DNA of 32,183 nucleotides from an uncultured Alphaproteobacteria bacterium. Lineage in GTDB: Bacteria > Pseudomonadota > Alphaproteobacteria > Micavibrionales > Micavibrionaceae. Within the stretch, counting starts at the first letter, position 1, and every line of letters begins with the position of its first letter. The position numbers and the translations under genes are program-made. Below, in pieces: positions 15,297-32,183 of this stretch. Where the stretch lies: assembly GCA_946480475.1 (NCBI GenBank), contig CAMLJM010000026.1, positions 1 to 32,183 on the forward strand. The letters are read 5' to 3'. Below the pieces are notes generated by a model. It was not told the DNA's origin. It made no database searches and was given only the letters and a program-made list of their open reading frames with translations.

Positions 15297-15391
15297 TCTA
15301 TCTTTGGTATAGGCCCCTTCCGGTCGTTAACAGGAAAGAAATGGCTTTTCTCATACAATAAGCTAAGTACGGGCGAATTGTATGGAAGAGT

Positions 15392-18300
15392 ATGACGGAT
15401 ACATCCAAAAGCAAGATTTTCTCCGGAAATGATGCTGTCTCCCAAGGCCCCTATGTGGTGGTCAGGCGTTATGCTGGCAATGCCGGCAATATAACGGCGG
15501 GGGATTTCTTTCTAGCAGAAGGCCAGCGCGCGGCGCTGGCTATCGCCTTTATATCTCCGGAACTGGACTTCGACGTAACCTGCAGGACTCTAAAGGCGGT
15601 GGCGGGCGATAGCCGGTTTCTGGCCGTATCGACAGCGGGTGAATTATGCAGCGCCCGCGATGGCGCGGGATCGCTTTACTGTGCTGATTCTTCTCACTCC
15701 CCGGGAATTGTTCTGCAACTTTTCAGCGCGGATATCATCGCGGAGATCAGCATTCACGCCGTGCCGCTTTTCAGCGAAGATATACGGCGCAAGGACATTG
15801 TCCTGTCCAAGGATCAGCGCGTCGAAAAAATCAGGAATTGCTTACAGGAGCTTCCGGTAAATTTCCCCGTGACAGCGCGCGACACGCTGGCTTTGACATT
15901 TGTCGACGGTCTTTCGGCTTCCGAGAATTATCTGATGGAAGCCGTGTATGCCAGTGGACGATTCCCCTGTCTGTTCGTCGGGGGGTCAGCGGGGGGCAAG
16001 CTGGATTTTCGCGATACATATCTTTTCGATGGCAAGGATGTTTTGCAGAACCATGCTATCGTGGCTTTTTGTAAAATGGCAAAAGGCGCATGGTTCAGCG
16101 CGTTCAAATCGCAAAATTTCAGGATGACGGGCCAGTCATTCGTTGTTATCGAGGCGGAAAGCGCCTGCCGTACTATCAAAACCGTTATGCGTGCAAATTC
16201 TACGGACCTTTTATCGCCTGTGGATGCCATGTGCCAGATGTTGGCATGTTCTGTCGATCAACTGGATGACTACCTCTCCGGTCATACATTCGGCATTAAG
16301 GTTGATGGTGAGTTATTTGTCCGGTCGGTAGCAAAAATCAATCATGCCGATGGCAGTGTTGAGTTTTATTGCGATGTGAATCCCGGCGATGAGCTGTTCT
16401 TTCTGGAAGCCACAGATTTTGTGGAACAGACCAGGAAAGATCTGGAGAGTTTTCTGCAGGGCAAGCCAGCCCCTGTGGGGGCGATTTTAAACGATTGCAT
16501 ACTCAGGCGCCTCAACAACGCCCGGAACTTGGGGGGCATGGACGATCTGTGGTCTATGCCTGCTGCGGGGTTCTCCACTTTTGGCGAATTGTTCGGCATC
16601 AATATTAATCAGACCTTGTCGGCGGTTGTCTTTTTCAGAACCCGCGAAGGGGAACTTTTTCACGACCGCTTTATCAATGAATTCCCGATACATTATGCCC
16701 GCTATATGAATTATTTCAGCCAGTGCCGTTTGCAGCAAGTATCCATCCTGAACAAATTGCGCGTTCAGATTATTCAGAAACTGATCAATTTTATAAATGA
16801 ATCCAATCGCCTGAATCGGGATCTGGGGATTTTGATCGACAGGCAGGAATCAGGGCAGGGAAATCTGGACGAAGCACAACTGCTTGCGGAGAAAAAATCC
16901 TATGAAAAGCAGTTTGACCTGGTGGATGAGTTCATGGATATCAGCAGGGTTCTGTCCTGCATCGATCATTCCCTGGGGATCAGGCAGGAAACGCTTTCGC
17001 CGGAAGCGGCAGGGGAATCCCCTGATCTGCTTTACAAGACATTCCACAACAGTATTCAGCTAGGGCAGCGTCTGCGCGAGAACATCATAAGTCTCAACCG
17101 GGCGCGACAAGAGGCGCAGGCCGCGAGTATCGCGAAATCGCAGTTCCTGGCGAATATGAGTCATGAATTGCGAACGCCCATGAACGGAATCATCGGCCTA
17201 GCGGAAATTCTTTCTGGGACAGATCTCAATGACGATCAGGCAGAATCGGCAAGGGCCGTCTTAAGCTCCGCCAAATCCCTTCTCTTGCTGCTGAACGACA
17301 TTCTTGACTACTCGAAAATAGAATCTGGCGAACTGGTTCTGGAGACCGTGTCGTTCAACCTGCGCGCCAGCCTGCAAAGCGTGGTCAGTGTGCAGCAACC
17401 TGTCGCTGCCAAAAAGAATGTCGATCTGAAATTCATTTACGAAGACTCCGTGCCCGTTCATGTGATGGGGGATTCTTTGCGTATCAACCAGATGGCGCTC
17501 AACCTGATCGACAACGCGCTTAAATTCACGGACAAAGGGCACGTTATATTGCGCGTTACATCCGGCGGCAGGGGTGAAGACGGAAAAGAAACAATCATCA
17601 TCAGCGTCGAAGACACAGGCATCGGAATTCCTGAAGACAAATATGACCGGATATTCCAGAAATTCATGCAGGCAGACGGATCGACAAGCCGCAAGTACGG
17701 TGGTACGGGCCTGGGTTTGACAATTACAAAAGATCTGGCGGAAATGATGGGCGGGCAGATCAGCCTGTCCAGCAAACCGGGAGAGGGAAGCGTTTTCAAG
17801 ATCAGTGTGCCGTTAATGGTTTCTGCCGACACGACAACCGGCCTCTCCAGTGACGAAGAAGACAGGATCGTTATGATGCCGGATTTGTCGGTGATGAGGA
17901 TACTGGCCGTCGACGATCACCCGGTGAATATGATGTTCCTGCGCAAGCTGTTGAAGAAAATGGGCTTTGCACACGTTGATGAGGCCGAGAATGGTAGGAT
18001 TGCGGTGGAGAAGGTCAAGGCGGCGGATCAGCCTTATCAGGCGATCCTGATGGATTGCCAGATGCCAGAGATGGACGGTTTTGATGCCAGCCGCCTGATA
18101 CGCATATGGGAGGAAGAGCAGGGGCAATCTCCGGGAATCATTATTGCTGTTACAGCCCACGCCATGGAAGGCGATCGTGAAAAATGCCTGCAGGCCGGTA
18201 TGAACGACTATATCGTAAAACCTATCAACCCTGGTAAATTGTATGAAACACTGGGGCGCTGGCTGTTCAGGCCTGAATCCACAACGGAATCATTCGCGCC

Positions 18301-18697
18301 TGTCCCGCCGCCGGACAGGAAAAATATCCCGGATGACGTGCCTGTCGATCTTGATCATCTGGCCTTGTTTACTGATGGCGATCCGAAGCAGGAGCAAATA
18401 TATTCAGGCATATTCCTGAGCGTAGGAGAAGAAATCCTTGGCGTGATGCGCGGGCATATACAGGGTGAAAAATCCACCGAAGAATGGAAACAGGTGGTGC
18501 ACAAACTGAAAGGGTCGTCCGCCCAGATCGGCGCCAATAATTTATTGGCTATATGCAAGGAAGCAGAAAGCAAAGACGCTGCCTCTCTGGCTGACAAACA
18601 AGAGTTGCTTACGCGTATCGAGGGCGACTTTGCCACGGTGAAGCGCTTTTTTGAAGATCGCCAGCAGGTTCATGGCCATATGGCCTGTCGTGCCTGA
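15392..18697 (+). CDS. FIST-domain hybrid histidine kinase with REC and Hpt domains
   Basis: A 1101-residue multidomain sensor. Order: FIST N domain (about residues 30-240, with GGSAGG near 197-202), FIST C domain (about 255-405, ending PAAGFSTFGELFG), a helical linker (about 430-570), HisKA with phospho-acceptor His591 in MSHELRTPMNG, HATPase with an N box near 697-710, DTGIGIP near 742 and GGTGLGL near 770, a receiver domain starting near 835 with phospho-acceptor Asp888 in LMDCQMPEMDG, and Hpt with His1037 in VVHKLKGSSAQIG. There are no transmembrane helices or signal peptide, so it probably senses a cytoplasmic ligand; FIST domains are proposed to bind small molecules such as amino acids. 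No cognate response regulator is adjacent. It lies between nusG and rplK. The GGAAGA ribosome-binding site is close to the ATG. Confidence 0.92.
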   Translation: MTDTSKSKIFSGNDAVSQGPYVVVRRYAGNAGNITAGDFFLAEGQRAALAIAFISPELDFDVTCRTLKAVAGDSRFLAVSTAGELCSARDGAGSLYCADSSHSPGIVLQLFSADIIAEISIHAVPLFSEDIRRKDIVLSKDQRVEKIRNCLQELPVNFPVTARDTLALTFVDGLSASENYLMEAVYASGRFPCLFVGGSAGGKLDFRDTYLFDGKDVLQNHAIVAFCKMAKGAWFSAFKSQNFRMTGQSFVVIEAESACRTIKTVMRANSTDLLSPVDAMCQMLACSVDQLDDYLSGHTFGIKVDGELFVRSVAKINHADGSVEFYCDVNPGDELFFLEATDFVEQTRKDLESFLQGKPAPVGAILNDCILRRLNNARNLGGMDDLWSMPAAGFSTFGELFGININQTLSAVVFFRTREGELFHDRFINEFPIHYARYMNYFSQCRLQQVSILNKLRVQIIQKLINFINESNRLNRDLGILIDRQESGQGNLDEAQLLAEKKSYEKQFDLVDEFMDISRVLSCIDHSLGIRQETLSPEAAGESPDLLYKTFHNSIQLGQRLRENIISLNRARQEAQAASIAKSQFLANMSHELRTPMNGIIGLAEILSGTDLNDDQAESARAVLSSAKSLLLLLNDILDYSKIESGELVLETVSFNLRASLQSVVSVQQPVAAKKNVDLKFIYEDSVPVHVMGDSLRINQMALNLIDNALKFTDKGHVILRVTSGGRGEDGKETIIISVEDTGIGIPEDKYDRIFQKFMQADGSTSRKYGGTGLGLTITKDLAEMMGGQISLSSKPGEGSVFKISVPLMVSADTTTGLSSDEEDRIVMMPDLSVMRILAVDDHPVNMMFLRKLLKKMGFAHVDEAENGRIAVEKVKAADQPYQAILMDCQMPEMDGFDASRLIRIWEEEQGQSPGIIIAVTAHAMEGDREKCLQAGMNDYIVKPINPGKLYETLGRWLFRPESTTESFAPVPPPDRKNIPDDVPVDLDHLALFTDGDPKQEQIYSGIFLSVGEEILGVMRGHIQGEKSTEEWKQVVHKLKGSSAQIGANNLLAICKEAESKDAASLADKQELLTRIEGDFATVKRFFEDRQQVHGHMACRA

Positions 18698-18722
18698 ATT
18701 TCCCCCCCATTACACTGATTCT

Positions 18723-18752
18723 TTGACATAAGGGAGAAATCGGGATTACAAC
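18723..18752 (+). promoter_or_regulatory. Sigma70-like promoter for the 127-residue hypothetical gene
   Basis: A consensus TTGACA -35 at 18723-18728 is followed after 18 bases by TACAAC at 18747-18752 (four of six matches to TATAAT). It lies between the hybrid kinase stop and the next start. Confidence 0.55.
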
Positions 18753-18788
18753 CGTAACATCCTGTTAAAAGCACAAGGGAGTTACGTC

Positions 18789-19172
18789 ATGACTGCGCAA
18801 CCTGCCACTATTGGACATCAGTGGACACAAGCTTCATCTGATCGCATGGAAGATATCATCGATAAACTAGGCAGGCTGGGCGCAGGCACGGGCGTAGGGC
18901 CGAATTTCTACCCTGGGGCAGCCGACAACCTTAAGGTCCGTCTGGGTGATCATAAGCATGGCATCGAATATGTCACACTGACACCTCAAGAAGTTGCAAC
19001 CGTGCGCGCCTATATGGACCGCAACGACAAGCCGGAATACGCAAAAATACGCGAACTATTTGCTGCTGCCGATAAAGCGTTTGTTCGCGGGCAAAGCTAT
19101 GCGCGTGAGTATTATGAGAAAAACGCCGCCAAAATTATTACGCAAGCCCCATCGCATATGCGTGCAGCCTGA
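18789..19172 (+). CDS. Hypothetical cytoplasmic protein, 127 residues
   Basis: I do not recognise this family. The protein has no signal peptide or membrane segment. It is mixed in character, with a Gly-rich stretch (LGRLGAGTGVGPNFYPG, about residues 27-43) and a charged helical C-terminal half containing many Tyr and Ala (KIRELFAAADKAFVRGQSYAREYYEKNAAK). It has a good GGGAG ribosome-binding site and its own likely promoter, so it is probably real and separately expressed. It is followed by a weak terminator and a convergent small gene. Confidence 0.7.
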   Translation: MTAQPATIGHQWTQASSDRMEDIIDKLGRLGAGTGVGPNFYPGAADNLKVRLGDHKHGIEYVTLTPQEVATVRAYMDRNDKPEYAKIRELFAAADKAFVRGQSYAREYYEKNAAKIITQAPSHMRAA

Positions 19173-19174
19173 GT

Positions 19175-19194
19175 AAATCCCGGAGGGTTTTTTT
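19175..19194 (+). terminator. Weak terminator after the 127-residue hypothetical gene
   Basis: A 6-bp stem with one G-T pair (19175-19180 with 19185-19190), a CGGA loop and a run of seven T (19188-19194) follow the stop directly. Confidence 0.5.
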
Positions 19195-19198
19195 CAGC

Positions 19199-19381
19199 TT
19201 AAGGCTTGGGGACGGCTTTGTAACAGAACGCGGTGACTCCGGCAGCCAGGGCAACACCTAACACATTCATGACAATGCCCGTCGGGGTGGCAGCTTCGCC
19301 AAATGATCGGGCAAGATTTGTGACGGTAAATCCCGAAAGGCCTGCGCCGACAATTGATAAAGTGCTAAAAAGTTTAGACAT
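19199..19381 (-). CDS. Small hydrophobic protein, 60 residues
   Basis: Unrecognised small protein with two hydrophobic segments (about residues 5-25 and 35-55) separated by a short polar loop (NLARSFGEAATP), ending in a short basic tail. It is likely a small inner-membrane protein. It is convergent with the preceding hypothetical gene and lies about 240 bases from the divergent rplK. The ribosome-binding site (AAAG) is weak, so the call is moderate. Nothing indicates a function. Confidence 0.5.
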   Translation of the reverse strand: MSKLFSTLSIVGAGLSGFTVTNLARSFGEAATPTGIVMNVLGVALAAGVTAFCYKAVPKP

Positions 19382-19478
19382 GATCTTTAAAAAATCTCTG
19401 TAGTTTGTTAAAGCTGGGCATAGTTATAGCTTAAAAATTTACATAATGCAATAACTGATTTGAGAATTACTAAAAACC

Positions 19479-19507
19479 TTGCATTTTCTGCGACTTCCCC
19501 CTAATTT
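19479..19507 (+). promoter_or_regulatory. Possible sigma70 promoter for rplK-rplA
   Basis: TTGCAT at 19479-19484 and TAATTT at 19502-19507 are spaced by 17 bases. Both hexamers match consensus only partly, but the position suits the rplK leader and rplK must have a promoter now that it is separated from nusG. Confidence 0.4.
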
Positions 19508-19540
19508 GCCGCGTCTCTGAGAAAGGTTTTTCAGGGATTT

Positions 19541-19591
19541 TCGTGGGAGGCCATACCGGGCTTCTAAGACCATCCGGCCGCCGCACCACGA
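19541..19591 (+). promoter_or_regulatory. Structured rplK leader, possible L1/L11 operon autoregulatory element
   Basis: Bases TCGTGG (19541-19546) pair with CCACGA (19586-19591), and GGCC (19549-19552) can pair with GGCC (19576-19579), closing a leader hairpin 27 bases before the rplK ATG. The L11 operon of many bacteria is autoregulated by L1 binding to its leader; assigning that role here is inference. Confidence 0.45.
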
Positions 19592-19618
19592 GCCTCGTTC
19601 TTTGTTTAGGAGGTTTAC

Positions 19619-20756: not shown

Positions 20757-20773
20757 TAAATATTCTTTTCATG

Positions 20774-20799
20774 AAAAGCCCCGGTTATCCGGGGCTTTT
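20774..20799 (+). terminator. Strong terminator after rplA
   Basis: A perfect 11-bp stem (20774-20784 with 20789-20799) with loop TTAT; the 3' arm ends in TTTT. It ends the rplK-rplA operon. Confidence 0.92.
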
Positions 20800-20851
20800 G
20801 ACTTTCCGCGACTTTGTAATTGTGGGGGCTTTACCTGCAGGGGTATTAAAA

Positions 20852-20860
20852 TGATATAAT
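20852..20860 (+). promoter_or_regulatory. Extended -10 promoter of secreted paralogue 1
   Basis: TGATATAAT combines the extended -10 dinucleotide TG with a perfect TATAAT, 40 bases before the start codon. No good -35 is visible. The same arrangement (TGGTATAAT) precedes the second paralogue. Confidence 0.6.
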
Positions 20861-20899
20861 CAGGAAAACCTGGGTGATACGGCATGCAAGAGGGGAATC

Positions 20900-21550
20900 A
20901 TGCACCGGATATTCAAGCATTCAATCGCTATTTTGTTTTTCGCTGTTCTGGCCGTCGATTCAACCGCGCTGGTTAACGGTGATCTGGCATTTAATAACAG
21001 TTTCGCTACATCCTCTTCATCGAAACCCAAAAGCGCGGACATGGGCGGGGCAACTGTGGTAAAACCCTTAGGTTCCGGCGAACCTATAGATTATTACAAC
21101 AGCGCGACCATCAGGGCGCAAAGCGTCCAGCAAAACCTGACGCAGGAATATGAATTGCTGCAACCCGGCCAATGCCAGCAACGCGTACTACCCCCGCATA
21201 GCACGACAGCCATCCCTTTCACATATGATAACCGCTACAGCAATATAAATGTGGCTGCTGGCGGCGTGACGCGCTTGTTTATTTCCAGCGTGCCGGGCTA
21301 TGACCCCCTCAACAGATTAGCGCCCAGTGTCCAGAATGATTTTGCGAGTCCCTGCCACGCGCAGGCGAACTTGCCAGGCTCTGATCCCCACAACCAGAAT
21401 AGCCTGAGCCTCACAGAGGCTGGGGCCAGCGGTCAGCAAGGCTGCATGTTGCGGAGGGGAGAAACCTACTATCTGAATATTCAAAATCAGGGGAAAGCCC
21501 CCCTGTGCGCTTCTTTTGGCAGCGATACGGCCTGCGGCTCCTGCGAATAA
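20900..21550 (+). CDS. Secreted Cys-rich protein of unknown family (tandem paralogue 1)
   Basis: A 216-residue protein with an N-terminal signal sequence (hydrophobic residues about 8-24). It is a paralogue of the next gene. Shared blocks are NLTQE..., PGxCxQRxxPPxSTTxIPFTY, GVTRxFxSSxPGYDPLNRLAP, NDFxSPCHAQANLP and YYxNIQNQGxxPxC, followed by two more cysteines near the end. Six cysteines align between the two proteins, suggesting up to three disulfides in a periplasmic or extracellular beta-rich domain. I do not recognise the family. It has an AGGGGA ribosome-binding site and its own extended -10 promoter. Confidence 0.72.
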   Translation: MHRIFKHSIAILFFAVLAVDSTALVNGDLAFNNSFATSSSSKPKSADMGGATVVKPLGSGEPIDYYNSATIRAQSVQQNLTQEYELLQPGQCQQRVLPPHSTTAIPFTYDNRYSNINVAAGGVTRLFISSVPGYDPLNRLAPSVQNDFASPCHAQANLPGSDPHNQNSLSLTEAGASGQQGCMLRRGETYYLNIQNQGKAPLCASFGSDTACGSCE

Positions 21551-21567
21551 TCCCGGAAAATCCTCGG

Positions 21568-21601
21568 AAAACCGCGGTCAGATCCCCGGTTGCGGTTTTT
21601 T
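21568..21601 (+). terminator. Terminator after secreted paralogue 1
   Basis: An 8-bp stem AAAACCGC/GCGGTTTT (21568-21575 with 21592-21599) with a 16-base loop and six T residues. The long loop can fold further. It separates the two paralogues, which therefore form two transcription units. Confidence 0.72.
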
Positions 21602-21619
21602 GCACGGCCCCGCGCGAAA

Positions 21620-21628
21620 TGGTATAAT
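21620..21628 (+). promoter_or_regulatory. Extended -10 promoter of secreted paralogue 2
   Basis: TGGTATAAT has the TG dinucleotide and a perfect -10, 48 bases before the start codon. It parallels the promoter of paralogue 1, suggesting that promoter and gene were duplicated together. Confidence 0.6.
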
Positions 21629-21675
21629 CTATAATAATTAGAAATGTGTCTTTAGGCACGCTAGAGGGGGCACCT

Positions 21676-22428
21676 ATGCGGCAATTTATCCTTTCCTGTA
21701 TATCTATGATTCTTATTACATGTGCCTCGACGGCGGCATATGCGCAATGTTCGATAGGCGATACGAATGACCATACCTGTAGCGAAGGCGCCGCACCCGC
21801 GCAGGAAGCCGCGCCCGCAACGCCAGCAGGTACAGCCATTCAATCTGCGCCAACAGCGCCACCGATTGGCACCAGTGATGTGATTGATTATTCAAGAACC
21901 TCGGAAACAGTGCAGCGCGATGTCCAGCCTAACCTGACCCAGGAAACAGATCCCATAGAACCGGGTGAATGCGTACAAAGAACAATCCCCCCCAACAGCA
22001 CGACCTCCATACCCTTCACATATGGGGGCGGCAGCACCAATATGAACGTGCCGGAGGTCGATGGTCAGGGCGTTACGCGTATGTTTGTGTCTTCAATGCC
22101 GGGTTATGATCCTTTGAACCGTTTGGCGCCCGGGGCTGGAAATGATTTTTACAGCCCCTGCCACGCGCAGGCCAACCTGCCTGACATATGCGATGAATCA
22201 TCCTGCGTACCGGATCCTAACAATGAGAATACGATCAATATCAGGGATGCAGAAACCGTAGCGGCTGACCCTACAGGTAATGCCGGCCAATGCCCGCTGG
22301 TACCTGGCACGCGCTATTACGTGAATATCCAGAACCAGGGTAGCAGCCCCATTTGCACGTCCGTAGGTAACGGGACGTCATGTCCGCCTTGCTACGTCGA
22401 TGGCGGTGGCTGGGGTGGCGGGGGCTGA
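21676..22428 (+). CDS. Secreted Cys-rich protein of unknown family (tandem paralogue 2)
   Basis: A 250-residue protein with a clear signal peptide (MRQFILSCISMILITCASTAAYA, cleavage likely before Gln24). A Pro/Ala-rich linker (about residues 36-62) precedes the conserved domain shared with paralogue 1 (see blocks listed there). It has extra cysteines (DICDESSC) and an acidic insertion, and ends in a Gly/Trp tail (YVDGGGWGGGG). The start at ATG 21676 follows AGAGGGGG; an upstream GTG at 21646 would place ten residues before the signal peptide. Function unknown. Confidence 0.72.
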   Translation: MRQFILSCISMILITCASTAAYAQCSIGDTNDHTCSEGAAPAQEAAPATPAGTAIQSAPTAPPIGTSDVIDYSRTSETVQRDVQPNLTQETDPIEPGECVQRTIPPNSTTSIPFTYGGGSTNMNVPEVDGQGVTRMFVSSMPGYDPLNRLAPGAGNDFYSPCHAQANLPDICDESSCVPDPNNENTINIRDAETVAADPTGNAGQCPLVPGTRYYVNIQNQGSSPICTSVGNGTSCPPCYVDGGGWGGGG

Positions 22429-22453
22429 TGAAATCCCCTCTTCATATTTACAG

Positions 22454-22488
22454 GAACTTCGGTCTACAATGACCGGAGTTCTTTTTTT
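22454..22488 (+). terminator. Terminator after secreted paralogue 2
   Basis: An 11-bp stem with one G-T pair (22454-22464 with 22471-22481), a six-base loop and seven T residues. Confidence 0.92.
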
Positions 22489-22508
22489 ACCAGGAAAGGG
22501 AGCGCCAG

Positions 22509-23393
22509 ATGAATTGGGCCCTTTACGCATTGCTCCACAGTCTGTGCAGGGCGTTCTTCGTTGAAACCAACCGTGTCTATAAGGTCGATAGCTGGCATCT
22601 GACCTTCATGCAGGCTTTGTTTGGCCTGCTGGTGTTGGTACCCGTTATACCTTTTATGCACTGGCCCACCGACCCGCGCTTTTATTTTGCGGCATTGATC
22701 GTATCCCTGATTACGGCGGTGGGTTATATGATCCAGCTGGGTCTGGCCGCTCAGAAGACAGGTCGTGTATCGGGTATGTATATGCCGCTCGAAGCATTGA
22801 CAGCGACTATCGTATGGGTGCTGGTCATGCCTGCCGCGCTGGAAATTCATACGCATAACTTATTGCTTTCCGCAGGTGTTGTTGTGGCCTTTGCATTGGC
22901 CAGCTTTGGCATGGCGCGAATTCGTCAAAGCGATGTGTCATGGAATACGTTCCTGATCGTGGCGCCTGTGGGTGTGACTTATGCGGTATCAGGTATTGCG
23001 ACCAAAATCGTCATGCCGGAAACCATGATTATCCCGACGGTGCTGACATATTCCTTCGTCAGTTTCGCTGTCATGACTTTTGTTCTGGGTACGGTGCTGC
23101 TGGCCAAGAAGAAAGTAAGCCGTGAAATGCTGGATAAACGCAATCTGCGGGGCGGCATTCTGACAGGCGCATTCTCTGTTGTGGGCTCTCTAAGCTTCGT
23201 GGCCAGTGTCGCGATGGCGCCGAACCCCGGTTATACCAGCATGATGGCGATGATGCTGCCCGTGTGGCTGATGCTGTTCCACAAGGCGCTGGGCGTGGAA
23301 GACCGCGCGAATAAACTGGCGGCTTCCATGCTGGCGCTGGGGGTGGTCCTGCTGATTATCGTGACGGCTGTATTCTCCGGTCCTCAGGCATAA
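22509..23393 (+). CDS. DMT/EamA-like membrane permease, putative
   Basis: A 294-residue polytopic membrane protein with about ten hydrophobic helices in two similar halves, as in the drug/metabolite transporter superfamily. An internal basic linker (AKKKVSREMLDKRNLRG, about residues 199-215) separates the later helices. Helix four carries the motif GMYMPLEALTATIVWVLVMP, typical of EamA proteins at this position. Substrate cannot be predicted. It has a GGGAG ribosome-binding site. It starts 20 bases after the terminator of paralogue 2, so its promoter is unclear; it may depend on readthrough. A strong terminator follows. Confidence 0.78.
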   Translation: MNWALYALLHSLCRAFFVETNRVYKVDSWHLTFMQALFGLLVLVPVIPFMHWPTDPRFYFAALIVSLITAVGYMIQLGLAAQKTGRVSGMYMPLEALTATIVWVLVMPAALEIHTHNLLLSAGVVVAFALASFGMARIRQSDVSWNTFLIVAPVGVTYAVSGIATKIVMPETMIIPTVLTYSFVSFAVMTFVLGTVLLAKKKVSREMLDKRNLRGGILTGAFSVVGSLSFVASVAMAPNPGYTSMMAMMLPVWLMLFHKALGVEDRANKLAASMLALGVVLLIIVTAVFSGPQA

Positions 23394-23396
23394 TAA

Positions 23397-23424
23397 AAAA
23401 ACCCCGGTCAAACCCGGGGTTTTT
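23397..23424. terminator. Bidirectional terminator between convergent genes
   Basis: An 11-bp stem (23397-23407 with 23414-23424) flanked by A-run on one side and T-run on the other. It can end both the permease transcript (plus) and the convergent small gene at 23445-23771 (minus). Confidence 0.92.
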
Positions 23425-23444
23425 ATTTTGAGGCCGTGATCGTG

Positions 23445-23771
23445 TTAAGCAACTACGGGGCGAATTTGGTTTCTTTGTAGTTGGCTGCTCAGGGACGTGT
23501 CCACACCTGAGAATGTAGGATATTGAGGGTGTGCCTCACGGATCAGATGGTCGGCTTCCACAGTCTCAACACCAGCAGCGCGAAACTCTTCAAGCTTACC
23601 AATAGCGCGCTGTGTGCCTTCGACCATGGCGCTGCTGTAACCGGCAATCAGTTCCCCGTCTTTCTTGGTGGCAGCTTCGGCGGCTTTGACTTCAAATCCG
23701 GCTTTCAGTTCTGTAGCCAAAGCGAGAAGGTCTGCAAGTTTGTATGTAATCGTGGCTTTAACGGCGGTCAT
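23445..23771 (-). CDS. Hypothetical cytoplasmic protein, 108 residues
   Basis: I do not recognise this family. The sequence is helical and Ala/Glu/Lys-rich (LADLLALATELKAGFEVKAAEAATKKDGELIAGYSSAMVEGTQRAIGKLEEFRAAG) with a more polar tail ending QIRPVVA. There are no cysteines, signal peptide or membrane segment. The start MTAVKATITYKL at 23771 is supported by a strong AAGGAG ribosome-binding site; an upstream in-frame ATG at 23810 lacks one. A minus-strand promoter (23998-24026) and a terminator-like hairpin (23817-23841) precede it, so its expression may be attenuated. Confidence 0.7.
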   Translation of the reverse strand: MTAVKATITYKLADLLALATELKAGFEVKAAEAATKKDGELIAGYSSAMVEGTQRAIGKLEEFRAAGVETVEADHLIREAHPQYPTFSGVDTSLSSQLQRNQIRPVVA

Positions 23772-23816
23772 AGTGGTCTCCTTCGGGTTAATAGTTCTCA
23801 AAAAGTCCAAAAATCA

Positions 23817-23841
23817 AAACCCCCGGACATGCCGGGGGTTT
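23817..23841 (-). terminator. Minus-strand terminator-like hairpin
   Basis: A perfect 10-bp stem (23817-23826 with 23832-23841) with a five-base loop. On the minus strand it is followed by TTTTGATTTTTGG, giving a broken T-tract. It may end a short minus-strand RNA or act as an attenuator for the gene at 23445-23771. Confidence 0.65.
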
Positions 23842-23991
23842 AAACTCACAATCGGGGCGCTTTTGTTCCCACATTCGCGCGCGCCTGGCCGTGGGGCACA
23901 ATTCCGGTGCCATCACCGAGCGGTCGCTGTCTAAATGTAAGATGTTTCGTGTTCAACACTTCACCTTAAAAACGCCAGTTATCTCTAAAGA
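23817..23991 (-). ncRNA. Candidate small RNA or structured leader on the minus strand
   Basis: A good minus-strand promoter (TTGACA, 17 bases, TAGAAA) predicts a start near 23991 and the hairpin at 23817-23841 predicts an end, giving about 175 bases. The region contains further short inverted repeats (23895-23899 with 23907-23911; 23868-23872 with 23891-23895). A 41-codon reading frame (23788-23913) runs through it without a ribosome-binding site. I cannot match it to a known RNA family. Confidence 0.4.
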
Positions 23992-23997
23992 AGTTAT

Positions 23998-24026
23998 TTT
24001 CTATAATTATTAGATGCAAGTGTCAA
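23998..24026 (-). promoter_or_regulatory. Minus-strand sigma70-like promoter
   Basis: On the minus strand a perfect TTGACA (24021-24026) is separated by 17 bases from TAGAAA (23998-24003, four of six matches). It points away from rplJ toward the gene at 23445-23771. Confidence 0.65.
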
Positions 24027-24079
24027 GAAAAAATCAGGAAATTCTTGGGTTTCTCCGCACTTTATCGCTAATAATTCTC

Positions 24080-24108
24080 TTGACCCCAAAGGGTAACCCC
24101 CCTATAAC
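24080..24108 (+). promoter_or_regulatory. Sigma70-like promoter for rplJ-rplL
   Basis: TTGACC at 24080-24085 and TATAAC at 24103-24108 are separated by exactly 17 bases; each hexamer has five of six consensus matches. It gives an mRNA leader of roughly 200 bases before rplJ. Confidence 0.78.
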
Positions 24109-24129
24109 AACCCGGTTTGAAGGCTTTAA

Positions 24130-24234
24130 GGGTCTTCAACAGCTGTCCAAGACTACAGGTAAAACCTCGGTTTTATAAGTCCTGTATAGACGGAAATGAT
24201 TGATCGGGGTGCCCTTTAAGGGGCTGCCTTTTTT
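24130..24234 (+). promoter_or_regulatory. L10-type rplJ leader RNA
   Basis: The leader contains an arm formed by CTACAGG (24153-24159) and CCTGTATAG (24181-24189), enclosing a TAAAAC/GTTTTA hairpin (24160-24175) with a CTCG loop. This layout resembles the L10 leader at which L10-L7/L12 represses rplJL. A GC hairpin (24211-24224) followed by six T (24229-24234) closes it and looks terminator-like. Assignment to the L10 leader family is by appearance only. Confidence 0.6.
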
Positions 24235-24254
24235 CATCGCCGTATGTTTGGACA

Positions 24255-24280
24255 GGATGGGGTTTAACCCGTCCTTTTTT
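24255..24280 (+). terminator. Terminator-like attenuator in the rplJ leader
   Basis: A 7-bp stem with one G-T pair (24255-24261 with 24268-24274), a six-base loop and six T residues, ending 39 bases before the rplJ start. Because it lies between promoter and gene it implies transcriptional attenuation of rplJ-rplL. Confidence 0.72.
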
Positions 24281-24319
24281 ATTGGAATTTTTTAGGTCGG
24301 TTTTGAAGGAGAAAAAACC

Positions 24320-25249: not shown

Positions 25250-25272
25250 TTTCAGTTTTATTGCCCAAGTTT

Positions 25273-25300
25273 AAACGGCTCGCTTCGGCGGGCCGTTTTC
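25273..25300 (+). terminator. Strong terminator after rplL
   Basis: An 11-bp stem with one G-T pair (25273-25283 with 25288-25298), a stable TTCG tetraloop and a T-rich tail. It separates rplJL from rpoB, which are co-transcribed in many bacteria. Confidence 0.9.
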
Positions 25301-25302
25301 TT

Positions 25303-26493
25303 TTATGATGGCTCTTCGATTTTATGCCCTGCAAAGGTCCAGATAGAGAATGCCAATGTAAGAACGGCACTGCCTGCCATGCCTAAAACCATGGGGGTGG
25401 GTGTTCCATCGGCGAATAATCCGCTGATCGCAATGATGGCTGATCCTGTCATCAGTTGCACTGTATTCATGACTGATGCTGCAGTGCCTGCAATATCGCC
25501 ATGGTTCGCCAGCGCCATCACAGAGATAGTAGGGATGACGATGCCTAAGAAAGCGAAGCTTACAAACATCAACCCCATTACCAGCGGCAGAGCCGTAAAT
25601 CCTGCCAGCACCAATCCCGCCAGTAAAATCATGCAGGCTGCAAAACCACCCGCAGCAGGCATAATGATATTATGAATGCCATAGCGTTTGGAAAGCCAGC
25701 CATTACATTGCGCAGCGGCAAAGAAGGCCGCAGCATTGATAGAAAACATGATGCTGAAACCGCGGGGACTCAGACCGTAATAATCCATCATGACGAACGA
25801 CGAGTTGCCCAGATAAATAAAGAATGTCGTGATGCCGAAAGATCCAATCAGGGTCATGCCGACAAACGGCTTATCGCGGATCAACACAGCAAAGGCCTGA
25901 CTCATGCTGGCAAATCCGGCCCGAATGCGTTTTTCATGAGGCAGGGTTTCACGCAGTGACGTAAGCAGCAGCATAATACCAAGCCCGCCCAGGATGGTAA
26001 TGCCCCAGAAGACAGCCCGCCATCCGGCAAATTCCACTACGTAACTGCCCACCAGGGGTGCCAGTAAGGGTGATATACTGAAAATCAGCATCAGCAATGA
26101 CATCATCTTCACTTCTTCAACACCGTGATAAAGGTCGCGCACAACCGCGCGGGCAATGATCATTCCGGCGGCCCCGCCAATACCCTGCAGGAATCGAAAC
26201 AACACCAGCATGCCGACTGACGACGCCAGCGCACAGCCAACCCCGGCAGCCACAAAAAGTATAAGACCCGTCAGCATCGGCGCGCGGCGGCCATACATGT
26301 CGGAAAGCGTGCCGAAAATCAGCTGGAATATCCCGAATGAGGCGAAAAAAGCTGTCAGGCTCAGGATAGCGCCTTGCCCTAACGACTTTTCGATCTCGGG
26401 CAGGGCAGGCAGATACATATCGATGGCAAACGGCCCCATGGCGGTAATCAGGCCAAGGATCAGGGCGTTTTTGAATAAACTGTTTTGATTCAT
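25303..26493 (-). CDS. Bcr/CflA-type MFS drug efflux transporter
   Basis: A 396-residue major facilitator with about twelve hydrophobic helices. The opening LGLITAMGPFAIDMYLPALPEIEKSLG and the loop GTLSDMYGRRAPMLTG (motif A region) are typical of the Bcr/CflA multidrug subfamily, as is the RFLQGIGGAAGMIIARAVVRDLY segment. It probably exports drugs or small metabolites across the inner membrane by proton antiport. I start at ATG 26493; the in-frame ATG at 26553 would add 20 polar residues and overlaps the proposed leader peptide. It is convergent with rplL. Confidence 0.9.
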   Translation of the reverse strand: MNQNSLFKNALILGLITAMGPFAIDMYLPALPEIEKSLGQGAILSLTAFFASFGIFQLIFGTLSDMYGRRAPMLTGLILFVAAGVGCALASSVGMLVLFRFLQGIGGAAGMIIARAVVRDLYHGVEEVKMMSLLMLIFSISPLLAPLVGSYVVEFAGWRAVFWGITILGGLGIMLLLTSLRETLPHEKRIRAGFASMSQAFAVLIRDKPFVGMTLIGSFGITTFFIYLGNSSFVMMDYYGLSPRGFSIMFSINAAAFFAAAQCNGWLSKRYGIHNIIMPAAGGFAACMILLAGLVLAGFTALPLVMGLMFVSFAFLGIVIPTISVMALANHGDIAGTAASVMNTVQLMTGSAIIAISGLFADGTPTPMVLGMAGSAVLTLAFSIWTFAGHKIEEPS

Positions 26494-26528
26494 GGGTTCA
26501 CTCTGGAGAGGGGTGCCGATGCACTGAT

Positions 26529-26603
26529 TTAAGCGCTCATCATGACAGGGCAAGCGCGAATGAAACAGCCCCCGTTTGTGGTGGCCTCAATAGGATCGGT
26601 CAT
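26529..26603 (-). CDS. Possible 24-residue leader peptide upstream of the MFS gene
   Basis: A short reading frame, M-T-D-P-I-E-A-T-T-N-G-G-C-F-I-R-A-C-P-V-M-M-S-A, starts at 26603 after an excellent TAAGGAGAG ribosome-binding site (seven bases from the ATG) and ends 35 bases before the exporter start. The ribosome-binding site is better than that of the exporter, which suggests real translation. It could be a regulatory leader or a small protein; nothing in the peptide is recognisable. Confidence 0.5.
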   Translation of the reverse strand: MTDPIEATTNGGCFIRACPVMMSA

Positions 26604-26640
26604 GTGTGGCCTCTCCTTAGAATACACCCACATCATACAT

Positions 26641-26683
26641 AATAGTTAGGCAAAAGGTTTTATATTAACTATTTGATTATCAA
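26641..26683. promoter_or_regulatory. Inverted repeats upstream of the MFS/leader-peptide unit
   Basis: Two overlapping palindromes: AATAGTTA (26641-26648) with TAACTATT (26666-26673), spaced by 17 bases, and TTGAT-T-ATCAA (26673-26683). The region is AT-rich. These are operator-like, or they may simply be promoter-region symmetry. Confidence 0.4.
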
Positions 26684-26701
26684 TGGTAATTTTATAGAAT
26701 T

Positions 26702-26932
26702 TTAAAAGGGGCCGCCGAAATCACAGCCGATGCTACGGTCAAAAGCGCGATCTATTCTCCGTATCGCAATACCGGTAGCTTCCTTTGCCAGCGCGCTGTC
26801 TGAGGCCTGTAATCCGCCCTTGACTTGGCTTGCAGCATCGTCAATCAGATCGATGGCCAGTTCCGCCCTCACGCGCTCTGCGAAATCCTCAACAAGTGAA
26901 GCGGGAAGTTTAATTTCAAAAGCTGTTGTCAT
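26702..26932 (-). CDS. Hypothetical protein, 76 residues
   Basis: Unrecognised small protein: helical, acidic in the first half (LPASLVEDFAERVRAELAIDLIDDAASQVKGG), with a basic IRRIDRAFDRS segment and a GCDFGGPF end. There is no signal peptide or membrane helix. I start at ATG 26932, which follows AAAGGG with suitable spacing; the ATG at 26953 gives seven extra residues and has less support. It lies between the exporter region and the rpoB promoter on the opposite strand. Confidence 0.6.
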   Translation of the reverse strand: MTTAFEIKLPASLVEDFAERVRAELAIDLIDDAASQVKGGLQASDSALAKEATGIAIRRIDRAFDRSIGCDFGGPF

Positions 26933-27003
26933 GATGGAGCCCTTTCTGCACACGATATAGAATATTGAAGGGGCTATTAGGTTATGTCAACAAAACAATC
27001 CTT

Positions 27004-27058
27004 GTGGATATTTTTACTATCCGATTCTTTCCACAGGGTTTTTTCTTGAAATCCACAG
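27004..27058. other. Cluster of three DnaA-box-like 9-mers
   Basis: TGTGGATAT (27004-27012, minus orientation, one mismatch to TTATCCACA), CTTTCCACA (27028-27036, two mismatches) and AAATCCACA (27050-27058, two mismatches) lie within 55 bases, just upstream of the rpoB promoter. The remainder of the 340-base gap holds the promoter and a structured leader. Confidence 0.3.
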
Positions 27059-27070
27059 AATCAAAAATAC

Positions 27071-27099
27071 TTGACTCTCAACCCCCGGTCCGGCATAAA
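27071..27099 (+). promoter_or_regulatory. Sigma70-like promoter for rpoB
   Basis: TTGACT (27071-27076) and CATAAA (27094-27099) are spaced by 17 bases. It predicts a long rpoB leader of about 190 bases and makes rpoB independent of rplJL, in line with the strong terminator after rplL. Confidence 0.68.
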
Positions 27100-27213
27100 A
27101 CGCGTGCGAAAGACCGGGAAAAGTGTGACTGCAGCCATTCCGCAAAGCGACTAACAGATTGATTTAACACCGTTTTTAGTAACCCTGAGCAGGGCGCGCT
27201 AAAGGCGGTTTTC

Positions 27214-27246
27214 CGCATTTCATCGTCGCTGCAGACGAAAAAATGC
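27214..27246 (+). promoter_or_regulatory. Stem-loop in the rpoB leader
   Basis: GCATTT and AAATGC close an outer helix around an inner CGTC/GACG pair, so the leader can form an extended hairpin about 50 bases before the rpoB start. There is no T-tract, so it is not a terminator. Confidence 0.4.
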
Positions 27247-27294
27247 ACGAATTTTTTATGATGCTCGGTGAAGGCCAACTAAGGAAAAGTAACC

Positions 27295-30200
27295 ATGACA
27301 ACAAAAACGCCCAAAACAACCCCAAAAGACAAAGCAGAGAAGAAAGCGCCCGCTAAGTCGCGCTCCTCGACCAAGGCTGCTGCCGCTGATAAGCCGGTTG
27401 TTCGCTACGTTGTTGAAAAACCTATTGTATTCAAGCCCGCTAACGATGTTGACAGCTTCACAGGCCGTAAGCGCGTACGCCGTTCCTTTGGTAAAATCCG
27501 CGAAGTGGCGGATATGCCGAACCTGATCGAGGTGCAGCGTCAGTCATACGAAGCATTCCTGCAGGCGGAAGTGCCGGCGGATCACCGCAAGATGCAGGGC
27601 CTGCACGAAGTGTTCTCTTCCGTATTCCCGATCAAGGATTTTTCTGATCGCGCAGAAATCGACTACGTGAAGTATGAGCTGGAAGAGCCGAAATACGACG
27701 TTGATGAATGCCAGCAGCGTGGCATGACATTCGCCGCCCCGCTGCGCGTGACACTGCGCCTGTCCGTATTCGATGTGGATGAGGATACAGGCCTGCGTTC
27801 TATCCGCGATATTAAAGAACAAGACGTTTATATGGTTGACATGCCGCTGATGACAAAGAACGGTACGTTCGTTGTTAACGGCACAGAGCGTGTGATCGTA
27901 TCCCAGATGCACCGTTCACCGGGTGTATTCTTCGACCATGACGGCGGTAAAACACACGCATCAGGTAAGTACCTGTTTGCGGCCCGTGTAATTCCATACC
28001 GTGGTTCATGGCTCGACTTCGAGTTCGATGCGAAAGACAACATTTATGTTCGTATTGACCGTCGCCGTAAATTGCCTGCCACAACATTCCTGCGTGCGCT
28101 GGATTCCGCCGCCACGGCAGCTTACCGCGTGAAATGCGAAGAAAATGACCAGCCGGTTGATCCGCTGCTTGTGCAAGGCATGGGTAACGAAGAAATCCTC
28201 CAGACCTTCTATGATGTGATCAACTACACACGTGAGAAGAAGGGCTGGAAAACGGCATTCAACGGCGAGCGTATGCGCGGCGTGAAACTGGTTCACGACC
28301 TCGTGGACGCGAAAACCGGCAAGGCTGTTGCTTCTGTTGGCGACAAAATGACTCCGCGTCTGGCCAAGCAGCTTGTTGAAAAGGGCCTGAAAGACATCCT
28401 GGTACAGGACGAAGAGATCATCACCAAATATGCGGCGATGGATATTTTCGATCCGAAAACAGGTCTGGTTGTTCTCGAAGCGGGTCAGGAAATCTCTGAA
28501 GAGAACCTGAAATCGCTGGAGAAAATGGGCGTAAACGAACTGCCGGTATTGGCGATCGATCACCTGAACGTGGGTCCATACATCCGTAACACCATGATGG
28601 TGGACAAGTGCGATACACGTGAAGAAGCGCTGATCGACATCTACCGCGTGATGCGCCCCGGTGAGCCGCCAACTGTTGAATCGGCTGATGCGCTCTTCCA
28701 ATCCCTGTTCTTTGACGCTGAGCGTTATGACCTGTCCTCCGTGGGCCGCGTGAAAATGAACATGCGTCTTGATCTGGATGCAGAAGACACAGTCCGCATC
28801 CTGCGCAAGGAAGACATCCTCGCGATCATGAAATACATTCATGGCCTGCGTGACGGCATGGGCGAAATCGACGATATCGATAACCTCGGTAACCGCCGCG
28901 TTCGTTCCGTCGGCGAGCTGATGGAAAACCAGATCCGTGTCGGCCTGCTGCGTATGGAACGCGCTATCCGCGAGCGCATGTCCTCTGTCGAAATCGACAC
29001 ATACATGCCGCACGACCTGATCAATGCGAAACCGGTCGCGGCTTCCGTTCGTGAATTCTTCGGCTCAAGCCAGTTGTCTCAGTTCATGGACCAAACCAAC
29101 CCGCTCGCTGAAATTACGCACAAGCGTCGTCTCTCAGCGCTCGGCCCCGGTGGTCTGACACGTGAACGCGCAGGCTTCGAAGTCCGCGACGTGCACCCGA
29201 CACACTATGGCCGTATCTGCCCGATTGAAACACCGGAAGGTCCGAACATTGGTCTGATCAACTCTCTGTCCACATTCGCACGCGTCAACCAGTACGGTTT
29301 CATTGAATCTCCTTACCGTCGCGTTCAGAACGGCAAAGTAACCGACGAAGTCGTTTACATGTCTGCGATGGAAGAAGCGAAATACACCATTGCGCAGGCA
29401 AACTCTCCAATGGACAAGGGCGGCAAGTTCACGGAAGAACTCGTCTCCTGCCGTAAGGCCGGTGAAAACATCATCGCTACCCCGGAAATGATCGAATTCG
29501 CCGACGTGTCGCCGAAACAGATCGTTTCTGTGGCTGCTTCGCTGATCCCGTTCCTTGAGAACGATGACGCGAACCGCGCGCTGATGGGTTCAAACATGAT
29601 GCGTCAGGCTGTGCCTCTGCTGCGCTCTGATGCGCCATTGGTAGGCACAGGTATGGAAGCAACGGTTGCCCGTGACTCTGGTGCGGCTGTAGTGGCGAAA
29701 CGCTCCGGCGTTGTGACGAAAGTCGATGCAACTCGCGTCGTTATTCGTGCAACCGAAGATATGCGTTCCGACCAGGCGACTGTTGATATCTACAAACTGT
29801 CGAAATTCCAGCGCTCCAACCAGTCAACCTGCATTACGCAGCGTCCGCTGGTTAAAGTGGGCGATGAAATCAAGTCCGGCGACATTATTGCTGACGGACC
29901 ATCGACACAACTGGGTGAATTGGCTCTGGGCCGTAACGTGCTGGTCGCGTTCATGCCTTGGAACGGTTACAACTTCGAAGACTCGATCCTCCTGTCCGAG
30001 CGTATCGTGTCCGAAGACGTGTTCACCTCTATCCACATCGAAGAATTCGAAGTGATGGCGCGCGATACCAAGCTTGGTACCGAAGAAATCACACGCGATA
30101 TCCCGAACGTGGGTGAAGAAGCCCTCAAACACCTCGACGAAGCCGGTATCGTTCACATCGGTGCCGAAATGAACCCGGGTGACATTCTCGTTGGTAAAGT

Positions 30201-31641
30201 GACACCGAAAGGTGAATCACCGATGACACCGGAAGAGAAACTTCTACGTGCCATCTTCGGTGAAAAAGCAGCCGACGTGAAAGATACCTCCCTGCGTGTG
30301 CCGCCGGGTGTTCAGGGTACAATCGTTGATGTACGTGTGTTCAACCGCCGCGGCGTTGATAAAGACGCTCGTGCAATGGCGATTGAGCGTGCCGAAATCG
30401 AACGCCTTGCAAAAGACCGTGATGACGAACGCGCGATCCTGGAAGATGGTTTCTTTGCGCGTCTGAAAGATCTGATGGTGGGTCAGACAGCGGGTACCGT
30501 GCCGAAGCAAGTCACATCCGTGAAGAAAGGCGAGAAAATCAAAGCCGCCGATCTGGACGAAGTGGGTCGCGGTTACTGGCGCCAGATTTCCGTCGAAAAC
30601 GAAAAACGCATGGAAGAAATCGAAGCTGTTTCCAAGACATTCGATGACGCCGTGGATCACCTGCAACAGCGTTTCGAATCCAAAGTCGAAAAACTGCAGC
30701 GTGGTGACGAACTGCCTCCGGGTGTGATGAAGATGGTTAAGGTCTTCATCGCTGTAAAACGTAAAATGCAGCCAGGCGACAAGATGGCGGGCCGTCACGG
30801 TAACAAAGGTGTGGTTTCCCGCATCATGAAGACCGAAGACATGCCTTACCTCGAAGACGGTACATCTGTTGATATCGTTCTGAACCCGCTCGGCGTGCCT
30901 TCACGTATGAACGTGGGTCAGATCCTGGAAACCCACCTGGGCTGGGCCACAGCGTCTCTGGGCAAGCAAATCGGTCAAATGATCGACAGCTTTGCAAACC
31001 CTGACGAGGCGACCGCTGCGGAACTGAAGAAGCTGAAAGATCAGCTGAAGACAGTTTACGGCGACAAGGAGTTTGACGAAAAAGTCACACGCCTTGACGA
31101 CAAGCAAGTTGTGGAAATGGCGAACAACCTGCGTGGCGGTATCCCGATGGCGACACCGGTATTCGACGGCGCGCATGAAGCTGACATCGACGAACTGCTG
31201 AACAAAGCAGGCCTCGACAAGTCCGGTCAGGTTCGCCTGATCGACGGTCGTACGGGTGAATACTTCCATCGCAACGTGACAGTGGGCTACATCTACATGC
31301 TCAAACTGCACCACCTTGTTGATGACAAGATTCACGCCCGTTCGATCGGTCCTTACTCTCTCGTTACGCAACAGCCTCTGGGTGGTAAAGCCCAGTTCGG
31401 CGGTCAGCGCTTCGGTGAGATGGAAGTCTGGGCCCTGCAGGCATACGGTGCGGCTTACACGCTGCAGGAAATGCTGACAGTCAAGTCGGACGACGTGGCT
31501 GGCCGTTCCAAAGTCTACGAAGCGATCGTTCGCGGCGAAGACAATTTCGAAATCGGCGTGCCGGAATCCTTCAACGTTCTCGTTAAAGAACTGAAAGCCC
31601 TTGGTCTCAACGTCGATATGAAGAACTCGGAAGGCAACTAA
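27295..31641 (+). CDS. rpoB: DNA-directed RNA polymerase subunit beta, with N-terminal extension
   Basis: A 1448-residue beta subunit. The usual start ([15 protein letters not shown]...) only begins at about residue 54; the preceding segment is Lys/Thr/Ala-rich ([20 protein letters not shown]...) and ends in [19 protein letters not shown]. There is no in-frame ATG, GTG or TTG between residue 1 and the conserved core, and a good AAGGAAA ribosome-binding site supports this start. The rifampicin region [34 protein letters not shown] is wild-type-like with Asp, His and Ser at the usual resistance positions. The catalytic-centre segment [13 protein letters not shown] and the end [15 protein letters not shown] are normal. 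It has its own promoter. Confidence 0.98.
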
Positions 31642-31647
31642 GACGCC

Positions 31648-32016
31648 ATGAACCGCACGGTCGTTGTCATTGTTGATAAAGGTCTGAAGGCACGGGTCGG
31701 CCCCGCGAAGGGTTTGCGCCCCGTGCTGAACGGCCTGGCATCGACACTGAACGCCGCGCAAGTGGCAGAGCGCGTTGAACAAGTGCGCACGGGCGTTGGC
31801 GAAGTGCTTACCCGCGAGGGCGGCAGGATTGAACGCACCATGCCGGATAACAGCATTGTCGTCAGCACGACCGATAAAGGCGTTATCGCACTGGGTCAGA
31901 TCGAAGGTGTCAAAGGCATCAGCGAAAATGGCGTTCTGCGTCCGGCCCGTGAATTTAAACAACCGGCAGCTTTGGCTGCTACAGCTTCGAGAGAAGCATT
32001 GAAAGTAACCGCATAA
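31648..32016 (+). CDS. Unrecognised 122-residue protein between rpoB and rpoC
   Basis: This frame begins two codons after the rpoB stop and in the same reading frame, and ends 33 bases before rpoC, again in that frame. The protein begins with a short strand-like MNRTVVVIVDKG, then a helical LNGLASTLNAAQVAERVEQVRTGVGEVL, a Gly-rich beta-like IERTMPDNSIVVSTTDKGVIALGQIEGVKGISENGVL, and an Ala-rich tail. It has no signal peptide, membrane helix or cysteine. Base use matches its neighbours. No strong ribosome-binding site precedes it; GGAAGG lies about 12 bases upstream inside the rpoB end, so it may rely on coupling. It belongs to no family I recognise. In most bacteria rpoB and rpoC are directly adjacent. 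Confidence 0.72.
   Translation: MNRTVVVIVDKGLKARVGPAKGLRPVLNGLASTLNAAQVAERVEQVRTGVGEVLTREGGRIERTMPDNSIVVSTTDKGVIALGQIEGVKGISENGVLRPAREFKQPAALAATASREALKVTA

Positions 32017-32183
<167 letters not shown>

Follow-up and report, generated by a model that had tools for sequence, protein, structure and literature searches.

An open reading frame of 122 codons that separates rpoB from rpoC raises two questions, i.e., whether it represents a gene and, if so, whether its position between the genes for RNA polymerase subunits beta and beta' says anything about the role of its product. Within the window (i.e., the whole stretch of 32,183 nucleotides analyzed here), the frame is located on the plus strand at 31648..32016. 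It follows rpoB (27295..31641, plus strand), which encodes a beta subunit of 1448 aa with the usual C-terminal residues, and precedes the start of rpoC (32050..32183, plus strand; truncated by the end of the window), which was assigned from the beta' N-terminus matched in relatives. The original prediction had placed the frame 6 bases past the rpoB stop and 33 bases before rpoC, and the coordinates confirm this: the TAA stop of rpoB occupies 31639-31641, the ATG of the frame is at 31648, and its stop ends at 32016, with rpoC starting at 32050. Both 31648-27295 and 32050-31648 are divisible by 3, so rpoB, the inserted frame and rpoC share one reading frame, as had also been predicted.

The final rpoB codons contain a putative SD-like stretch, GGAAGG (31629..31634, plus strand), with a duplex energy of -5.7 kcal/mol (random-site mean, -3.3 kcal/mol) and a long spacing of 13 bases to the ATG. 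The rpoC leader (32017..32049, plus strand) is retained 3' of the insert and also carries an SD-like stretch, with a duplex energy of -4.9 kcal/mol against the same random-site mean of -3.3 kcal/mol. Within the joint between rpoB and rpoC in the window, no inverted repeat or other repeat, no strong hairpin, no promoter-like site and no terminator-like site on the sense strand was found; two weak terminator-like matches were present on the opposite strand, where 1.1 matches would be expected over both strands. Judged from these sequence features (i.e., the short spacers of 6 and 33 bases, the SD-like stretches and the absence of a repeat or terminator-like sense site), the inserted frame is probably cotranscribed with rpoB and rpoC, which is in line with the co-expression with beta and beta' that had been proposed for it.

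Codon use was assessed with a model trained on 14 genes of the window, with the inserted frame excluded. The frame scored 0.30 per codon and 0.17 on a synonymous-only scale, which is near the middle of the distribution of 83 true-gene windows drawn from the training genes (means of 0.30 and 0.15, respectively). Among 414 wrong-frame or antisense windows (means of -0.44 and -0.17, respectively), none reached the score of the frame on either scale. Other non-ribosomal genes in the ribosomal clusters of the window scored lower (0.16 for 18789-19172, 0.01 for 20900-21550 and -0.04 for 21646-22428). Moreover, two homologous proteins of 122 and 120 aa match the predicted protein (12.8 kDa; pI 10.3) over its full length, with identities of 98% and 91% by BLAST (98 and 93% in the alignment). 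A chance open frame without a product would be compatible with relatives that are limited to two near-identical sequences, but it is contradicted by the codon use and by the full length kept in both homologues, one of which (the 120-aa protein) differs by an in-frame two-residue gap, and we regard this explanation as very improbable. The frame is thus a genuine coding gene, and the original prediction of a real, unrecognised gene was borne out by both lines of evidence. By its codon use, the gene looks settled or well expressed, like native genes; a very recent arrival would therefore be a poor fit.

Searches for more distant relatives of the protein gave uniformly negative results. Beyond the two near-identical proteins, no match was found among 5.8 billion proteins, with a profile search included and E-values up to 10 considered, and scanning 84,980 species genomes with a pattern-based method that is sensitive to close relatives only yielded no match to the gene. 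None of 142 Micavibrionales genomes showed a match to the protein at E 0.01, although this empty result, obtained without a positive control, shows little. Plasmids, phages and viral contigs contained no relative, and neither Pfam (up to E 1) nor PHROGs yielded a match. In NCBIfam nothing rose above noise (best E 0.05, an unrelated enzyme), and the same was true for PDB sequences searched up to E 10 (best hit, 35 residues of HrpA at E 0.04). An AlphaFold model built from three near-identical sequences had a pLDDT of 39 and is uninformative on the fold; a resemblance to small alpha/beta folds like those of protease propeptides found no support from Pfam to E 1 or from PDB to E 10. Taken together, the gene appears to be lineage-restricted; the two homologues were found here as protein sequences, and their genes may lie at the same joint or elsewhere.

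A scan with NusG placed the window in the Micavibrionales, the order of the predator Micavibrio and its kin, with the best loci (94-95%) found in a Micavibrio aeruginosavorus metagenome-assembled genome (MAG; G001) and an alphaproteobacterial MAG (G002). No RpoB match was found in G001, and its joint is therefore unreadable. In this MAG, which was deposited as a chromosome (L001, L086; CP066681.1), similarity to the window ends after the gene at 22509-23393, and the assembly may lack rplJL-rpoBC. Among the relatives whose joint could be read, G002 is the closest; it is also the nearest row in the tree described below, and its RpoB is 94% identical to that of the window. As this match covers residues 1-1447 of 1448, the inserted gene is not a split-off end of rpoB, and this origin can be ruled out. 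The rpoB-rpoC joint of G002 measures 85 bases and contains no gene. When a 550-base DNA query comprising the rpoB end and the joint was used, 88 of the 142 genomes matched and, among the matches listed, the similarity was confined to rpoB. The check that had been suggested, i.e., a search for homologues at the same joint in relatives, thus found an empty joint in G002 and a match in none of the 142 genomes of the order.

If the gene itself is missing from relatives, the joint that it occupies is often filled with something else. The C-terminus of rpoB was located in 103 of the 142 Micavibrionales genomes and 101 joints were fetched (two partial matches, in G126 and G141, and an additional match in G014 were left out); rpoB and rpoC were present on both sides in 100 of these, while the remaining one (L140), with 741 bases past rpoB, no rpoC and a contig end, was not counted. 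The 100 joints ranged from 17 to 1736 bases, with 30 of at least 200 bases (hereafter, long joints) and 24 of at least 300 bases. As the Acetobacterales yielded no rpoB or rpoC match in any of 73 loci (L008-L080), a sample of the class was used as control. Among its 172 genomes, rpoB matches were found in 150 and rpoC matches in 148; after removal of two Micavibrionales and two genomes without a partner gene 146 remained, 144 of which had both genes on one contig. Only 6 of these 144 showed gaps of at least 200 bases by coordinates, and four when the sequence was read (the six measured 398, 591, 5, 252, 171 and 206 bases in sequence); two of the six contained ATG frames of at least 65 aa. The difference between 30/100 and 6/144 was significant (P = 2 × 10-8; Fisher's exact test), with the reservation that genomes within one order are not independent. 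The view that a gene in this joint is very unusual therefore holds for the class sample but not for the Micavibrionales.

Long joints are scattered within the order. In a quick tree based on 544 RpoB/RpoC columns (only 35% of them covered by the window), no fewer than 26 switches between the long and the short state were needed to account for the 31 long joints, counting that of the window, where shuffled labels gave approx. 27; well-supported branches alone forced 10 changes. All 31 long joints fell in one set of 83 rows, and the remaining 18 rows were short. Close pairs of one long and one short joint were the window and G002, L165 and L141, L138 and L155, L112 and L116, L123 and L118, and L129 and L152. 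While such counts cannot separate gain from loss, the contents of the long joints are unrelated, which argues for separate gains.

These contents comprise 35 sense ORFs of at least 55 aa, carried by 28 of the 30 long joints and representing 28 families by blastp at 1e-3; of the two other joints, one (L126) lacks any ORF of 40 aa, while the other (L127) has a single ORF of 49 aa. A Pfam scan covered 30 of the 35 ORFs, the five omitted (L092, L106, L148 and two of L121) being homologues of scanned ones. Ten of the 30 showed a family above the cut-off (SIMPL twice, L-PSP of the RidA type, DUF1653, nucleotidyltransferase, HepT-like, FliL twice, GIY-YIG and FkbM methyltransferase), and 20 showed none; apart from the one GIY-YIG protein, no mobile element or recombinase family was found above the cut-off in the scanned ORFs. 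The protein encoded in the window showed no kinship to the other small orphan inserts with phmmer up to E 10, and its blastp matches to them had E-values of 2 or worse. The joint is thus a hotspot of gene gain in the Micavibrionales, with unrelated occupants.

At least one of these inserts is maintained by selection, as the SIMPL gene found in the joints of three sister genomes had dN values of 0.11-0.12 and dS values of 0.83 and 2.05 (one pair was not computable), and is thus under purifying selection. A single SIMPL match was present in each of 48 of the 142 genomes, at the joint in four, elsewhere in 33 and in genomes without a located rpoB end in 11. With identities of 32-44% to distant SIMPL copies, SIMPL at the joint looks like a resident gene that was relocated. 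A nucleotidyltransferase and HepT-like pair occupies the joint in three genomes that lie apart on the tree (L121, L129 and L148); this MNT-HepT pair is of the toxin-antitoxin type, by Pfam name in L129 and by homology in L121 and L148. Palindromes, which we take to be REP-like, flank the inserts in L099, L104, L130, L148 and L149; in L104 and L130 they are present at either end of the insert. Flanking palindromic repeats may have helped capture in some cases.

The diversity of the occupants bears directly on the function that had been proposed for the product of the inserted gene, i.e., an RNA polymerase-associated factor with beta or beta' as its binding partner and with synthesis matched to theirs. 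Such a role would fit the location of the gene in the rpoB-rpoC joint, the likely cotranscription, the basic nature of the protein (pI 10.3) and codon use typical of well-expressed genes. However, the gene is missing from the nearest relative (G002) and from the 142 genomes of the order, the remaining inserts at the joint bear no relation to it, none of the 30 scanned ORFs showed a transcription family above the Pfam cut-off, and the protein itself matched no described family of transcription factors or RNA polymerase subunits in Pfam, NCBIfam, PHROGs or PDB. As the joints of relatives hold unrelated, ordinary accessory genes, position alone is uninformative on a link to RNA polymerase; we consider this role improbable, and the original prediction of it is unsupported. 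Even less probable, in our judgment, is that ribosomes read through the rpoB stop, whether in a programmed or a leaky manner, and so extend beta by 122 residues. The shared reading frame, interrupted by a single TAA, would permit such a fusion, but the inserted gene carries an ATG of its own 6 bases past the rpoB stop, and UAA is usually the least leaky stop. Moreover, the 35 ORFs of the long joints are spread over the three frames relative to rpoB (10, 10 and 15 ORFs), and four of the 35 are in frame with both rpoB and rpoC, where approx. 1 in 9 would be expected. The shared frame therefore means little and is at chance level, and readthrough as a design is not supported, since the frame relation is not kept among the inserts.

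A further alternative is that the whole secE-rpoBC-str cluster is breaking up in these genomes and that the rpoB-rpoC joint is not special. Nine joints of this one cluster were compared in 60 longer loci, which were picked by length of contig. Gaps of at least 200 bases were found at 20 of 60 rpoB-rpoC joints as compared to 5 of 188 within-operon joints (P = 6 × 10-10), and it is these within-operon joints, which have stayed shut (0/46 for rplK-rplA, 2/56 for rplJ-rplL, 1/44 for rpsL-rpsG and 2/42 for rpsG-fusA), that speak against a general loosening. Joints at operon boundaries, on the other hand, are as loose or looser in the same loci (21/35 for nusG-rplK, 46/46 for rplA-rplJ, 11/12 for rplL-rpoB and 27/27 for rpoC-rpsL), although many of these long gaps may represent leaders or promoters rather than inserts. 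Thus, the rpoB-rpoC joint behaves as a boundary, though its two genes form one unit elsewhere. The window itself was opened by 4.3, 3.6 and 2.0 kb at three boundary joints (15297-19618, 20757-24319 and 25250-27294, respectively), as general loosening would predict. With the boundary joints equally loose, part of the hotspot effect may be due to general loosening; as an explanation of the hotspot as a whole, we consider it unlikely.

The opened joints of the window contain a large histidine-kinase-like gene (by eye) and two small genes that resemble each other and have Cys-rich ends. Between rplL and rpoB lies a gene on the opposite strand that, by eye, is transporter-like. Elsewhere in the window, two genes for small proteins of the cyclic-nucleotide-binding type (11406-11948, minus strand, by Pfam; 13270-13842, minus strand, by eye) flank a DUF6782 metallopeptidase-like gene (12017-12994).

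Where the codon model could assign an orientation, ORFs in rpoB-rpoC joints (window included) were all in sense (13 sense, 0 antisense), whereas the other joints had 22 in sense and 13 in antisense (P = 0.01); the model recognized no ORF in 8 of 21 long rpoB-rpoC joints. By length alone, an antisense ORF exceeded the sense ORF in 3 of the 30 long joints (L106, L127 and L130), in one of which (L106) the sense ORF is SIMPL. In 20 of 28 joints, at most 30 bases separated the rpoB stop from the start of the first ORF, and in 24 of 28 the final ORF ended at most 70 bases before rpoC. SD strength before rpoC was similar in long and short joints (means of -6.0 in 30 long joints and -6.3 in 70 short joints).

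Hairpins below -10 kcal/mol were found in 36 of 54 short joints of the order (45-150 bases) and in 8 of 44 joints at rplJ-rplL, and a hairpin lies beside the ORFs in 9 of 28 long joints. A joint hairpin can be ruled out as the cause of the hotspot, because a strong hairpin (below -10 kcal/mol) was also present in all 13 hand-picked control joints from other Alphaproteobacteria. The joints considered for such hairpins include L088, L089, L090 and L255-L268; the joint in L090 (G052) has a 10-base stem followed by a T run and is terminator-like. In five related genomes (L144, L145, L146, L156 and L161) a common hairpin stem was observed, the arms of which seem to co-vary (by eye); if they truly do, they would indicate a selected RNA structure.

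Overall, the data make it probable, in our view, that the gene at 31648..32016 is a genuine orphan that forms the middle cistron at a joint acting as a hotspot of gene gain in the Micavibrionales. We propose that unrelated accessory genes enter the rpoB-rpoC joint, stay for a while and then are lost or replaced. In a transcript reading rpoB-orf-rpoC, translation of the orphan gene would be coupled to termination at the rpoB stop or would restart downstream of it, and production of beta' would continue, with the rpoC leader left untouched by the insert. In polarity, Rho stops transcription when the next cistron is not started (PMC9239205), and survival is therefore predicted to be best for sense inserts that are translated and are followed by efficient re-initiation at rpoC; inserts that are not translated in sense would be lost, since transcription would stop before the essential rpoC. 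The orientation of the inserts, their spacers and the kept leader fit such a polarity filter. The orphan protein itself would then have an accessory role and no particular link to RNA polymerase. A more tentative possibility is that the joint represents a growth-coupled slot, in which accessory genes, among them relocated residents and orphans such as the present one, are repeatedly inserted and then kept by selection for production in step with RNA polymerase.

Fusions of rpoB and rpoC occur in Helicobacter and Wolbachia; in these fusions the joint is lost, while in the Micavibrionales it is widened, both being departures from the usual joint. In G160 and G291, both from the class sample, a single, fusion-like open frame of about 2700 codons spans the rpoB and rpoC matches. 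As in the hotspots described by Oliveira et al. 2017 (PMC5635113), fixed core genes flank the Micavibrionales joint and unrelated genes turn over fast, and many of those hotspots also have no recognisable mobile elements. According to the same paper, new genes rarely enter an operon and join its edges instead; the Micavibrionales spot, by contrast, is inside rpoB-rpoC and receives one to four small genes, not islands. In addition, those hotspots were defined within species with simulated thresholds, whereas here one order was compared without such a threshold. A study of Gammaproteobacteria and Bacilli describes entries of few genes into the same cluster, with tusDCB located between rpoBC and str and nrdHEF between rplL and rsmC as examples, and with operons intact in 75 of 115 rearrangements; unlike in the Micavibrionales, an insertion between rpoB and rpoC is not described in the main-text passages of that study. 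In the open-access literature, mostly titles and the starts of abstracts, no report of genes between rpoB and rpoC in Micavibrionales was recognised; the phrase "rpoB-rpoC intergenic" was absent and "between rpoB and rpoC" appeared only in mycobacterial work. The sections of the Micavibrio genome paper considered here (PMC3189940) name rpoB once, in a list of genes for a tree.

These results also carry a warning, i.e., that proximity to rpoB and rpoC does not by itself show that a gene belongs to the polymerase. If the joint were indeed a growth-coupled slot, it would break with the usual avoidance of operon interiors by new genes. The repeated filling and emptying of the joint in the Micavibrionales offers a natural experiment on the tolerance of an essential operon, on how closely production of the two large subunits must be matched, and on whether gene capture is favored at sites of high expression.
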